A stretch of 45,313 bases of DNA from Candidatus Marsarchaeota G1 archaeon BE_D (GTDB taxonomy: Archaea > Thermoproteota > Thermoprotei_A > Marsarchaeales > Marsarchaeaceae), in the NCBI GenBank assembly GCA_003019595.1, contig NEXD01000005.1, positions 1-45,313 on the forward strand, written 5' to 3'. The notes under the pieces were generated by a model that was not told where the DNA came from, did not search any database, and worked only from the letters and a program-made list of their open reading frames with translations. The position numbers and the translations under genes were made by a program. Positions 31,017 to 37,226 of this stretch are shown piece by piece. How positions within the stretch are numbered: the first letter of the stretch is position 1; each line of letters begins with the position of its first letter.

Positions 31017-31472
31017 TCAAAATATGTTAGCCAAAAGTCTGACTTTGTTAGCTCTTAAATTCACTTGTTCCATTTCTAATGACATTTCATGAAACCCGTA
31101 AACATGAAGAACCCATGCTGACTTCCACGCTTCGTGAATTTCTTTCGGTGCCCTAAACGCCACACTAAAGAGAATGTCGGAACTCCATCTTTTTTGTTCC
31201 TTAACCTTGTTTAGCAAATCCGTCATGTTAAGTTTCACCGCAAGCATTTTAACCGCTTCTTCAGCGGCCTTGTAATACTTTTCACAAGCTTGAACGACAT
31301 CGCCCTTACTCAATAACTCATCCGCCTCAGCTATCCATTCTTTTATCTTTGAGCGTGTCTGCGAGCTTGACAAGGCTAGACACATCCTGTGCATATTCCT
31401 TAAGCGGTTCAAGATTGAGTTGTGTTGTGTGCAAAACAAGCGCCGAATTCCAACGATCCACCAATTTTTCAT
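31017..31472 (-). CDS. PaREP1-family protein, copy 2; true start probably just upstream of KIKEWIAEADELL
   Basis: AEADELLSKGDVVQACEKYYKAAEEAVKMLAVKLNMTDLLNKVKEQ. Confidence 0.75.
   Translation of the reverse strand: MKNWWIVGIRRLFCTQHNSILNRLRNMHRMCLALSSSQTRSKIKEWIAEADELLSKGDVVQACEKYYKAAEEAVKMLAVKLNMTDLLNKVKEQKRWSSDILFSVAFRAPKEIHEAWKSAWVLHVYGFHEMSLEMEQVNLRANKVRLLANIF
31194..31329. repeat. 136-bp direct repeat, copy A; identical to 31534-31669
   Basis: Base-by-base comparison, offset 340 bp, no mismatches seen. Confidence 0.95.
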
Positions 31473-31707
31473 CTTTCAAAATTTTTGATGCAATGATAAC
31501 AATTTTGTCTAGTGTGGTGGCATCCCATTCACCTTGTTCCTTAACCTTGTTTAGCAAATCCGTCATGTTAAGTTTCACCGCAAGCATTTTAACCGCTTCT
31601 TCAGCGGCCTTGTAATACTTTTCACAAGCTTGAACGACATCGCCCTTACTCAATAACTCATCCGCCTCATTAAGATAAACGTCTGCTGCGCTAAGTAATA
31701 GCATCAA
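31327..31707 (-). CDS. PaREP1-family protein, copy 1
   Basis: Same N-terminal module as copy 2, different C-terminal half. Confidence 0.8.
   Translation of the reverse strand: MMLLLSAADVYLNEADELLSKGDVVQACEKYYKAAEEAVKMLAVKLNMTDLLNKVKEQGEWDATTLDKIVIIASKILKDEKLVDRWNSALVLHTTQLNLEPLKEYAQDVSSLVKLADTLKDKRMDS
31534..31669. repeat. 136-bp direct repeat, copy B; identical to 31194-31329
   Basis: Base-by-base comparison. Confidence 0.95.
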
Positions 31708-32616: not shown

Positions 32617-33706
32617 TCAGAGCCAGTTTATTTTTCTTAAATAAACTGTGAGCACGACTCCAAGCACCACGAGAGGTGCAGTAAACTCAAGCGCGCCCAA
32701 ACTCAGAAGACTAGAGAGAACACTTTGAAAGCTTACTGCGTAAATGCTCGCGATTGCGGTTATTGGAAGGAATATAAATGAAATTGAAGTTAATTTCTTT
32801 ATCACCACATTAAGTTCGTTTTGCACTTCCGTTAGATAAATGTTGTAAAGATCGGATGTGCGAGTGAGAAGCGACTCAACGCGCGATAGTGAAAACTCGA
32901 CGTCTGCGAGCACATCTTGTTCGAGTAGCTTTGAAAGCTTTCTTGTTATGTGATAGAGAGAAAGCGTGTCGCTGTAAAGCTCAGCCGCTCTTTCCCTCAC
33001 TTTTCGAATTTCGGTAGTGTCCTTTAGCTTTCCCTCAGAAATTTTGTCAAGTAGCTCCTCGTAAGCGGACAAAAGCGCGGATCTTTCTGAACCAAACATT
33101 ATCGCAAAGTGATAAATCAGCTCTTGTAGCACGCTTTTTTGCGAGCAATCGGAGAGCTCTATCCTTTCTAAAACTTGCTTTAAGTACTGCGAGTAAACCG
33201 TTATTCTGTTTTGAGCAATAGCGATGTAATGCGGTTGTCTGTCTGACTCCTCTCCGCCTCACAGAGGCGAGGGTTCCTCTGTGAGGGGTTCATCGTTCCC
33301 ACCATCGGTTCGGGGCTACATCCCTCATTTGGTGGGCAGTAGGGGTAGCCAGAGAGCCCCCCACATGAAAAGAGGGGACTTTCATCGCATAGCTCTAGTC
33401 CCTTAATGGGAAGAGGCATCACTGCTTGCTCCTCCCACAGTCCCATTAAGCCCCCGATCGAGCTGGGGAGGAGCGTCATTAGCGTCACTAAGAGAAAAAT
33501 AGAAGAACTCATATTTAAATATAAGGGGGCTATCCATCCCCGCTCCTCAAAGAGGCGAGGCTTTCCGCCCCCCTTAACCCCCATTTTTGTAAATCAAACC
33601 TGAGATATAACCAACCGTCTTCGGATTGCTCAACTCTGTAAGAGTCAACCTCATTTTTTGGGAAATTTTCTGGAACACGCTCAAGGTATTGTATTTCGCA
33701 TTTCAT
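32617..33706 (-). pseudogene. CorA-like two-TM membrane protein gene split by an insertion at 33237-33588
   Basis: 5' part 33706-33589 (118 nt) plus 3' part 33236-32617 (620 nt) joins in frame into 245 aa: MKCEIQYLERVPENFPKNEVDSYRVEQSEDGWLYLRFDLQPHYIAIAQNRITVYSQYLKQVLERIE... Confidence 0.8.
33237..33588 (-). mobile_element. 352-bp non-autonomous IS200/IS605-like insertion, no target-site duplication, 3' of TTTAC
   Basis: Exact frame restoration when removed; terminal hairpins (33257-33286; GC-rich stem about 33522-33578); TTTAC at the left junction. Confidence 0.72.
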
Positions 33707-33779: not shown

Positions 33780-33965
33780 GTTATAAGGCTTCCAAAACCT
33801 CGCCCCTCGGGGATTGCGAAAGATTTCACGCAAAAACACTCACACCCGCGTAGCTCGGGGACACCTGTGGAGGCCTGCGTAACCCTGTAGCGGGGATCGA
33901 GCGCGGTCGCTGAAGCAGGAAGCTCCTTCCTTAGGAGGAGGGTAGCTCACCCTAACTCTCTACAC
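33780..33965 (+). pseudogene. Relic 3' end of an IS605-type tnpB with omegaRNA/right-end-like hairpin
   Basis: Translation SSGTPVEACVTL* then GSSAVAEAGSSFLRR; GAAGCAGGAAGCTCCTTCCTTAGGAGGAGGGTAGCTCAC resembles IS605 right ends. Confidence 0.6.
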
Positions 33966-34092: not shown

Positions 34093-37000
34093 TTGTTTAA
34101 AAGACCTAAGAGTGGCATCTTTGGACCTTCTAAAGAAGAAGAAATACTAAAGTTTTGGAACGAAAACAAAATCTTTGAAAAAAGCGTTGAATCAAGAAAA
34201 GGTGCGCCTCTTTTCAGGTTTTTAGAAGGACCACCCACAGCTAATGGATTACCTCATCCAGGGCATATAAGAACAAGAACGATCAAAGACGTTGTGCTAC
34301 GTTATAAAACCATGTTGGGTTACTATGTGCCAAGGTCAGCCGGATGGGACACGCACGGTCTTCCTGTTGAGTTAGAGGTTCAGGCTGAACTTGGCTTAAA
34401 GTCCAAGGAAGAAATAGAGCGCTACGGAATTGAAAGATTTGGGGAAGCTTGCAAAGCCAACGTTTTCAAATACGAAAGAGAATGGCGCAGAATGACAGAA
34501 AGAATTGGCTTTTGGCTCGACCTTGAACACGCGTATATCACTTTTAAAAACGAATACATTGAATCGATTTGGTGGTCGCTCAAAAATCTTTACGAAAGAG
34601 GATTGTTGTACAAGGGGTTTAAAGTCGTTCCTTACTGCCCAAAAGACGGCACACCTCTTAGTAGCCATGAAGTGGCGCAGGGCTACGAAGAGACTGAAGA
34701 CCCTTCGATTTACGTAAAGTTCAGGCTTTTAAATGGCATCCACGCTGGCAAAAAGCTCGTCGCTTGGACCACAACACCTTGGACCCTTCCATCGAACATA
34801 GCTCTTGCGGTCAAGCCTGATGCGGAATACGTGTCTTTTAAGTATCAAGACGACGTTTTGATTTGTGCGAAACAAAGAGTAAAAGTTTTTGGCGACGTGC
34901 AAATCTTACAAAGTTTTTCTGGCTCTGAGCTCATCGGTTCGTCGTACGAACCTCCTTTCGACTACGCAAAAAAGGTCGAAGGCAAAAAGTACGTGGTTGT
35001 GGGATATGAAGGTGTTTCGTTAGAGGAAGGAACTGGTGTGGTTCACATGGCGCCCGCTTTTGGCGAAGAAGACTACGAGGTGTGCAAAGCAAACTCGCTT
35101 GCGTTTTTCCAACCAGTGGATTCAAATGGAAAATTCACTTCTGAAGTGAGCGAGTTTAAGGGTTTGTTCGTAAAAGACGCCGATCCTTTGATAATTCGCT
35201 ATTTAAAGGAGCGCAATTTGCTTGTGAAAAGCGAACGATACAAACACAACTACCCTTTCTGCTGGCGGTGCGGCTCTCCGCTTTTGTACTACGCTTGGCC
35301 AACTTGGTTTGTAAAGACCACTGCAAGAAAAGAAAAATAATCGAGCTTAATAGCTCGATAGCATGGTTTCCGGAGCACATTAGAGAAGGAAGATTTGGTG
35401 ACTTCCTTCGTGAGATGGTTGATTGGGCGCTGAGCAGAAACCGCTACTGGGGAACTCCGCTTCCAGTTTGGGTTTGTTCAAATTGCGGAGAAATTGAGGT
35501 TATCGGAAGCGTACAAGAACTTCTTCAAAAGAGCGTGAAAAAGCCAGAAAGGCTTGAATTGCACAGACCGTACGTCGACGAATTCGTTTTAAGATGCAAC
35601 AAATGCGGAGGAGAGATGAGAAGGGAACCAGTTGTAATAGATGTTTGGTACGATTCCGGCGCCGCAACTTTTGCGAGGTATCACTATCCCTTTGAAAACA
35701 GAGAGCAGTTTGAAAACAACTTCCCCGTGGACTTTATAACAGAGGGTGTTGACCAAACGAGGGGATGGTTCTATAGCCTTCATGTGCTTGGTTCACTTCT
35801 TTTTGATCAGATGGCCTTCAAAAGCTGTCTTGTCATAGGTCTTGTGCTCAACGAACAAGGAGAAAAGATGTCAAAGAGCAAGAAGAACTACGATGACCCT
35901 TGGACGCTTATTGAGAAATATGGCGCAGACGCACTAAGATGGCAGTTACTCGGAACAACCCCTTGGGACGTTGTGAGATTTGGTGAAAGAGGTGTAGCGG
36001 ATGCGAAGCGAAGGTTCTTTGGAATCCTTGAAAACTGTGTAACGTTCTTCCTTACTTACGCAGAGCTTGATGGATTTGACCCGGCTTTGCACACTGTGGA
36101 GTTTGAAAAAACGTCTACTCTGGACAAGTGGTTGCTAAGCAAGCTACAACTTCTTATAAAAGGTGTAAGACAAGCGCTAGATGTTTACGAGTTCAACGCT
36201 GCGGTTGAGCTTATCGAAAAGTTCGTTGTGGACGACCTAAGCCAGTGGTACATAAGAAGATCAAGAAGAAGATTCTGGAAGGAAGAAAAGGACCTTGACA
36301 AATGGGCGGCTTACACAACGCTTTACCACACTTTGCTCGAACTTTCGAAAATCATAGCGCCGCTCGCTCCGTTTAGCGCCGAAGTGATGTACCAAGAGCT
36401 CGCCTTAAAGCAGAAGATGCCAGAAAGCGTTCACCTCAATTCTTACCCACAATACAATCCAGAGCTTGTCTTTGAAAAGGAGCTAGAGGAGATAGAAGAT
36501 GTGAGAAATGTGGTTGAGGTGATTCGCGCCGCAAGAAATGAAGGTGGTGTGAAGACGAGGCAACCACTACTTGTGGCAAAGGTGTACTGCCAGGATCGAG
36601 TGTGGAAAAGCGTCGAAAAGAACTACGAAGTTGTCGTCGATGAGGTGAACGTGAAAAAGGTGGAGCGTCTTCCAAACCTTTCGGAATACAGGGTGTACGA
36701 CTTGATTCCGAACAAAGCGGCTATAGGAAAAAGGTTCAAGGTAAAAAGCGTTGTGTTGATAGAAAAAGCGAATCAAGAAAAACAAAGGATAGCTCAAGAA
36801 ATAGCGGAAAAAGGATACGCACTAGTTGAGCTTGACGGCGAAAAAGAGCGCGTCACCGAGGAGGAGTTCAGGGTGGTGCTCAAGCCGAAAGAAGGTTTTG
36901 CTCACGCAGAAAGAAGCGGAATTCACGTGTTTCTTGATCTACGAACAACACCAGAGCTTGAAGAAGAAGGTTTGGTGCGTGATTTTGTAAGGAGGGTGCA

Positions 37001-37226
37001 AATCGGAAGAAAGGAACTTAACCTGGAGTTTGACCAGAAGATTAAACTCAGAGTTTGGTTTGAAGACGAACGGCTTTCAAAAGCGGTGTTAAAGCACGAA
37101 GAGTACGTTAAAAGCGAAACGCTGGCTAGCGAGGTTGCTTTCGACCCTTCAGTGGTTCAACAGGTCGAGCCAGTCGATCTAGATGGCTCAAAAGTGTGGA
37201 TAAAAATCGAGATTAATCCACTTTAA
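34093..37226 (+). CDS. ileS: Isoleucyl-tRNA synthetase, interrupted by an apparent -1 frameshift near A5 at 35333-35337
   Basis: GPPTANGLPHPGHIRTRTIKD; KMSKSKKN; the two ORFs join as [41 protein letters not shown]. Confidence 0.95.

Follow-up and report, generated by a model that had tools for sequence, protein, structure and literature searches.

A non-autonomous IS200/IS605-type element in Marsarchaeota with a predicted structured RNA that contains a TnpB omega-RNA scaffold

Palindrome-associated derivatives of IS605 (PATEs), present in haloarchaea and bacteria, are short, carry IS605-type ends, and are mobilized in trans. Some bacterial PATE-like elements reportedly carry omega-RNAs, according to work on Geobacillus. 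In Sulfolobus, the elements SMN1 (from S. islandicus REN1H1) and SMN2 are said to have been described by Berkner and Lipps in 2007. In abstracts and passages of published accounts, SMN1 (320 bp) and SMN2 are presented as non-autonomous elements believed to be mobilized by transposases of the IS200 type (PMC3718332, PMC3839810), and transposition of SMN1 is stated to require the ISC1733 transposase (PMC3718332). A TnpB protein from S. islandicus acts as an RNA-guided nuclease whose target-adjacent motif (TAM) corresponds to the left-end motif of the element and whose guide lies 3' of the right end (PMC10640517).

Here, we analyze an element that interrupts a CorA-like gene of Candidatus Marsarchaeota G1 archaeon BE_D, within a 45,313-nucleotide stretch of contig NEXD01000005.1 (hereafter, the window). 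As far as those abstracts and passages go, this element resembles SMN1 and SMN2 in being non-autonomous, about 320-350 bp long, multicopy in Sulfolobaceae, and apparently tied to an IS200-type transposase, whereas the same portions of the SMN1 and SMN2 descriptions mention no RNA gene or omega-RNA. Going by these descriptions, it is probably of the SMN1 kind. Our literature search, at the level of titles, abstracts, and passages, found no description of a guide-RNA gene in SMN-type elements. Like PATEs, the element is a short derivative of IS605-type ends, but it shows a conserved full RNA gene; the omega-RNAs that bacterial PATE-like elements reportedly carry limit any claim of newness. With the IS1341-type tnpB-only elements of Sulfolobaceae, it shares the left end, the TATA box, the omega-RNA core, the terminal GTCAG, a TTAC-like target, and the last 31 tnpB codons, but it lacks tnpB, in the place of which there is a structured 5' RNA domain. 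As in the TnpB omega-RNA (reRNA) of ISDra2 and SisTnpB1, the scaffold ends at the right end, the 3' flank would take the place of the guide, and the left flank that of the target motif; unlike those RNAs, the predicted RNA of this element is free-standing, with a promoter-like box, an extra 5' domain, and no overlap with tnpB.

Extent, insertion site, and copies of the element

The interrupted gene and the element occupy the following positions of the window.

33589..33706, minus strand: 5' part of the CorA-like gene, 39 codons
33589..33593, minus strand: TTTAC, the target and predicted TnpB target-adjacent motif, part of the host sequence and present on the left side only
33243..33588, minus strand: whole element, 346 bp, delimited by copy alignment, two exact empty sites, and ungapped CorA orthologs
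33513..33588, minus strand: left end with the subterminal hairpin GGGGGC...GCCCCC, common to tnpB-only and tnpA-tnpB elements
32617..33242, minus strand: 3' part of the CorA-like gene, with a possible restart at the GTG at 33132 (171 aa)

The host gene encodes a CorA-like transporter (Pfam CorA, E 3.8e-12), which the insertion divides after codon 39; the gene may thereby be inactivated, or it may restart at the downstream GTG. The initial annotation had described a 352-bp element with the right edge at 33237, the removal of which exactly restores this gene. The minus-strand sequence that it quoted is present as read, and the gene is indeed restored, but by removal of 346 bp. On the minus strand, the element sits 3' of TTTAC and its edges read TTTAC/...GTCAG/. 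In the copy alignment, almost all copies end in GTCAG and the flanks differ beyond it, so that the right edge is 33243, 6 nt short of the earlier placement. Uninterrupted CorA-like orthologs in three genomes (G026, G025, and G032) align without gaps around the site only after removal of 346, not 352, bases, with scores of 593/585/506 versus 580/576/499; around the junction, the protein reads ..FDLHRQPHYIAI in the window, ..VDLEGKPHYLSV in G032, and ..IDFDGKPHYLTI in G025. The frame seemed exactly restored at 352 because 346 and 352 are both 1 mod 3. The ortholog search found no CorA orthologs from the same family, and the window's own empty site is accordingly seen at the protein level only.

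Two exact empty sites come from pairs of finished or near-finished genomes. At the first, G211 is empty and G210 is filled by a 329-bp copy (junction GTAAACCTTTTCACTTTAC/CTAGGTG); at the second, G210 is empty and G209 is filled by a 316-bp copy (junction GGAAATAAGTTAATTTAC/TAGGAAATA). In both cases, TTTAC joins the right flank directly, with no target duplication and no added bases, in agreement with the earlier observation that target-site duplication is absent. A third possible empty site (G211 versus copy L203 of G210) was left uncounted because its junction carries a deletion. Copies that retain the left edge are preceded by TTAC, usually TTTAC, with rare exceptions (L116 and L227), which bears out the placement of the left junction after TTTAC. 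The hairpins noticed at both ends also held up: the minus strand, as DNA, folds better than shuffled sequences (z -3.3), and both the left-end stem GGGGGC..GCCCCC and the right-end subterminal hairpin CCTCACAGAG/CTCTGTGAGG are kept across copies.

A search of the BE_D genome assembly (2.19 Mb, 195 contigs, 91% complete) with the element yielded 20 matches, well beyond chance, 10 of them over most of the query (one being the element itself, the others at 80-89% identity). With copies at overlapping contig ends merged (C149/C23 by a common left flank and C17/C72 by a common right flank), the copies reduce to about nine loci, on C5, C149/C23, C15, C17/C72, C116, C75, C90, a second site on C23, and C37, some truncated by contig ends. 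The initial annotation had pointed to further copies and empty sites as the evidence to look for, and both exist, in the form of these loci and the two exact empty sites in relatives. Decayed relics detected with the RNA model (about 32-83 bits) on C48, C9, C28, C69, and C89 suggest that the element has long been resident in this lineage.

Outside the BE_D genome, covariance-model matches above about 120 bits were confined to a single family (f9), in which the element is multicopy. We take f9 to be Sulfolobaceae because the match coordinates of G204 and G218 agree with those of Sulfolobales archaeon Acd1 and Sulfolobus sp. UBA167. Copies on an IMG/VR contig and in a record attributed to Sulfolobus tengchongensis spindle-shaped virus 4 point to a possible route of transfer. 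The weaker class-level matches, where inspected, cover mainly the 3' half and either skip the 5' domain or fill it poorly, as tnpB right ends would be expected to do. One orthologous copy (L257, G212:C1:1842300-1844250) is itself broken by an insertion whose 316-aa ORF looks IS110-like, and L115 and L124 (in G051 and G039) are longer relatives in which a few hundred extra base pairs follow the 5' domain, ahead of the point where the omega-RNA core ends.

Taken with the related tnpB and tnpA elements described below, the copies, the empty sites, the TTAC target, the lack of target duplication, and the hairpin ends strongly support the earlier identification of the segment as a non-autonomous IS200/IS605-type element inserted in the CorA-like gene. 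Considering that the genome is a draft metagenome assembly with many copies at contig ends, one could suppose that the segment belongs to the CorA-like gene or is an assembly artefact. None of the orthologs, however, contains it as coding sequence, copies with varied flanks are present also in finished one-contig genomes, and empty sites exist, which makes the probability of this reading negligible.

Elsewhere in the window, an apparent isoleucyl-tRNA synthetase (34093-37226, plus strand) is encoded in two overlapping ORFs in different frames (34093-35340 and 35268-37226), a split that looks like a frameshift, real or assembly-derived. On the minus strand, two overlapping ORFs at 31017-31707, one of them for a PaREP1 family protein, share the near-identical stretch EADELLSKGDVVQACEKYYKAAEEAVKMLAVKLNMTDLLNKVKEQ and are probably a tandem duplication.

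The predicted RNA and its promoter

The initial annotation missed the main feature of the element, a structured RNA preceded by a promoter-like TATA box. The corresponding features are as follows.

33512..33519, minus strand: TATA box TTTAAATA (element 70-77), at a distance of 30 nt from the conserved start of the RNA in this copy
33243..33489, minus strand: predicted non-coding RNA starting with AGTGACG (element 100-346), modelled over 33243-33494 (R1, 283 bits)
33374..33489, minus strand: 5' structured domain, in miniature elements only; boundary with the core approximate
33243..33373, minus strand: omega-RNA-like core and right end, common to tnpB elements
33223..33242, minus strand: ACAGACAACCGCATTACATC, host sequence immediately after GTCAG and, by analogy to omega-RNA guides, the predicted guide
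33293..33385, minus strand: remnant of the 3' end of tnpB (residues 355-385, ..HQMRDVAPNRWWER*; E 9.4e-5, 52% identity)

The RNA fills about 70% of the element. An alignment of 18 copies over element positions ~95-346 (252 nt) gave a consensus structure of 50 pairs in eight helices, with 95.4% of the cells paired and changes on both sides in 16 pairs; there are 52 cells with double changes, compared to 16.8 in shuffled alignments and 2-9 with slid partners. The double changes fall in helices 4-8, which covary. Helices 1-3 are nearly invariant and show none, and are therefore consistent with the structure without proving it. The 5' domain includes the helices GCTCCTCCC/GGGAGGAGC and GGGACT/AGTCCC, and the core includes a GGGG..CTCTG..CCCC hairpin, a CCACC/GGTGG stem, a terminal hairpin, and the GTCAG end. 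The 3' half is homologous to the omega-RNA scaffold at the right ends of tnpB elements and stops at the element edge, which would make the adjoining 3' flank its guide. Right-end hairpins also serve single-strand transposition, and conservation of the 3' half alone is thus no proof of RNA function. An Rfam search with the element returned only chance-level matches. Judging from covariation and homology, the element carries a conserved structured RNA that contains a TnpB omega-RNA scaffold; this RNA would be expressed and bound by TnpB.

In the miniature elements, TTTAAATA lies 26-31 nt upstream of the conserved RNA start AGTGAYG, and in full elements the same TATA box lies 29-33 nt upstream of the tnpB ATG. 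Thus, the left-end promoter, which would serve a leaderless tnpB message in full elements, seems in the miniature element to be used for the RNA, which, by archaeal promoter spacing, the TATA box would drive.

These features bear on whether the element is a passive miniature insertion sequence, in which only the hairpin ends matter, for TnpA, and the remainder is a dead remnant of a tnpB element. Most MITEs are of this kind, the ends of the element match those of autonomous elements, and, according to abstracts and passages, SMN1 moves in trans. Yet element positions ~98-216, which span the 5' domain, have no match in tnpB, are conserved between Sulfolobaceae and the BE_D lineage, form helices with compensatory changes, remain recognizable in decayed relics, and are preceded by the TATA box at nearly constant spacing. 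We consider a purely passive element unlikely.

The element has no transposase gene of its own. It contains a 127-aa ORF, which the initial annotation regarded as either a TnpB-derived tail or chance. The TnpB alternative was rejected because the tnpB relic is in the third frame and the ORF in the second, and because the ORF is not conserved: from its start, only 11-85 codons are open in other copies, with indels breaking the frame. Chance is the part of the earlier proposal that stands. The 127-aa frame, a GTG at the expected transcript start, and putative small ORFs reported for SMN2 in passages of its description (PMC3839810) could nonetheless be taken to indicate that the element codes for a small protein. 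With the frame open for such short stretches elsewhere, no Pfam match to the 127-aa ORF, and substitutions that follow the RNA pairs, a coding function is very improbable.

Related tnpB and tnpA elements

Matches to tnpB-only (IS1341-type) elements cover ~100 bp at the left of the element and ~120 bp at its right end. One such element, in G040 (L121), shares the left end, the TATA box, and the right end and codes for an intact TnpB of 385 aa that contains a Cas12f1-like TNB domain. Left-end matches comprise L120-L122, C71, L134, L137, L140, L144, and L028. Within the BE_D genome, a TnpB N-terminus is found with the left end on C71, and TnpB C-termini are found with right ends on C62, C131, and C41. 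An intact Y1 TnpA is encoded on C7, next to a matching left-end hairpin. The tnpA elements, that on C7 included, have the left-end hairpin GGGGGTTAAGGGGGC...GGATAGCCCCC in common, but their site is TTAA rather than TTAC, and the comparison of ends found no full right-end match to them. A full-length tnpA or tnpB element with matching ends, anticipated in the initial annotation, was thus identified for both ends among tnpB-only elements and for the left end only among tnpA elements.

The BE_D genome (G000) has 36 matches to the Cas12f1-like TNB domain of TnpB, many of them fragments, versus two Y1 TnpA, and appears therefore to be rich in tnpB-only elements. A second repeat lies directly upstream of the CorA-like gene (33800-33950); its copies include one on C3 (151 bp, 94% identity), others at 71-80% on C50, C77, C87, and C8, and a partial one near TnpB on C9. 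This repeat probably represents a further miniature element or right end of IS605 type.

In all 12 genomes where the RNA match reaches 200 bits or more, this TnpB family is also present (E<=1e-40), a co-occurrence that supports restoration of the element by TnpB from relatives. Four genomes with RNA matches of about 128-177 bits (G204, G205, G215, and G221) have no TnpB of the family at E<=1e-40, and in G051 the family is represented by a decayed fragment only. The TnpBs recovered from the BE_D genome have a shorter omega-RNA 3' region, without about 22 nt that are present in the element; G032 and G053 are apparently of this short type too, judged by coverage. G040 and pHVE14 carry the long omega-RNA type, as do G209-G211 according to the length of their matches. 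A tree of miniature versus tnpB omega-RNA cores within genomes was not used because most tnpB cores were missed by the extraction pattern.

Proposed mode of persistence

We favor, as the probable explanation, a non-autonomous member of the IS200/IS605 family, similar in type to SMN1 of Sulfolobus, that is moved by a borrowed TnpA and kept by a borrowed TnpB. Under this scheme, the TATA box in the left end, the tnpB promoter in full elements, would drive the RNA, which would read across the right end and thereby take in about 20 nt of 3' flank as its guide. Relatives would supply the TnpA that excises the element and inserts it as a single strand. TnpB from relatives, loaded with this RNA, would cut TTTAC followed by the guide sequence, either where the donor site has closed up again or in a sister copy that is empty, and recombination repair after cutting would restore the element. 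The 5' domain (~100-215) probably stabilizes the free-standing RNA or aids competition for TnpB. Several observations count against this explanation: the long type is in G040 and pHVE14, whereas the local TnpBs are short and may not use this RNA; the local tnpA element is at TTAA whereas the element is at TTAC; TnpB of the family is missing at E<=1e-40 from G204, G205, G215, and G221 and decayed in G051; and the right-end hairpins have a role in transposition as well.

The RNA may instead be made for another role: it could act as a decoy and titrate TnpB, or be a guide co-opted to regulate genes beside insertions. The scaffold is free-standing with an extra domain, its guide always matches local host sequence, and archaeal omega-RNAs have growth-dependent circular forms (PMC12558985). 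Such roles have no specific support, and active spread, conserved ends, and a TAM-like target fit retention better; we regard them as quite improbable.

Returning to the explanation by borrowed TnpA and TnpB, its broader form is a family that has no gene other than a self-standing guide RNA under its own promoter, that restores itself by RNA-guided cutting of vacated or unfilled sites, with both proteins borrowed, and that has evolved a separate RNA domain for this purpose; we judge the case for such a family to be evenly balanced. MITEs are usually seen as passive passengers that need only their ends, whereas here a widespread archaeal miniature element has apparently kept a dedicated guide-RNA gene that includes a domain specific to it. 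If this is true, the element would be a parasite of both an RNA-guided nuclease and a transposase, which would explain how protein-free IS605 derivatives escape loss by excision. The family would then represent a natural set of stand-alone omega-RNAs with guides in Sulfolobaceae.
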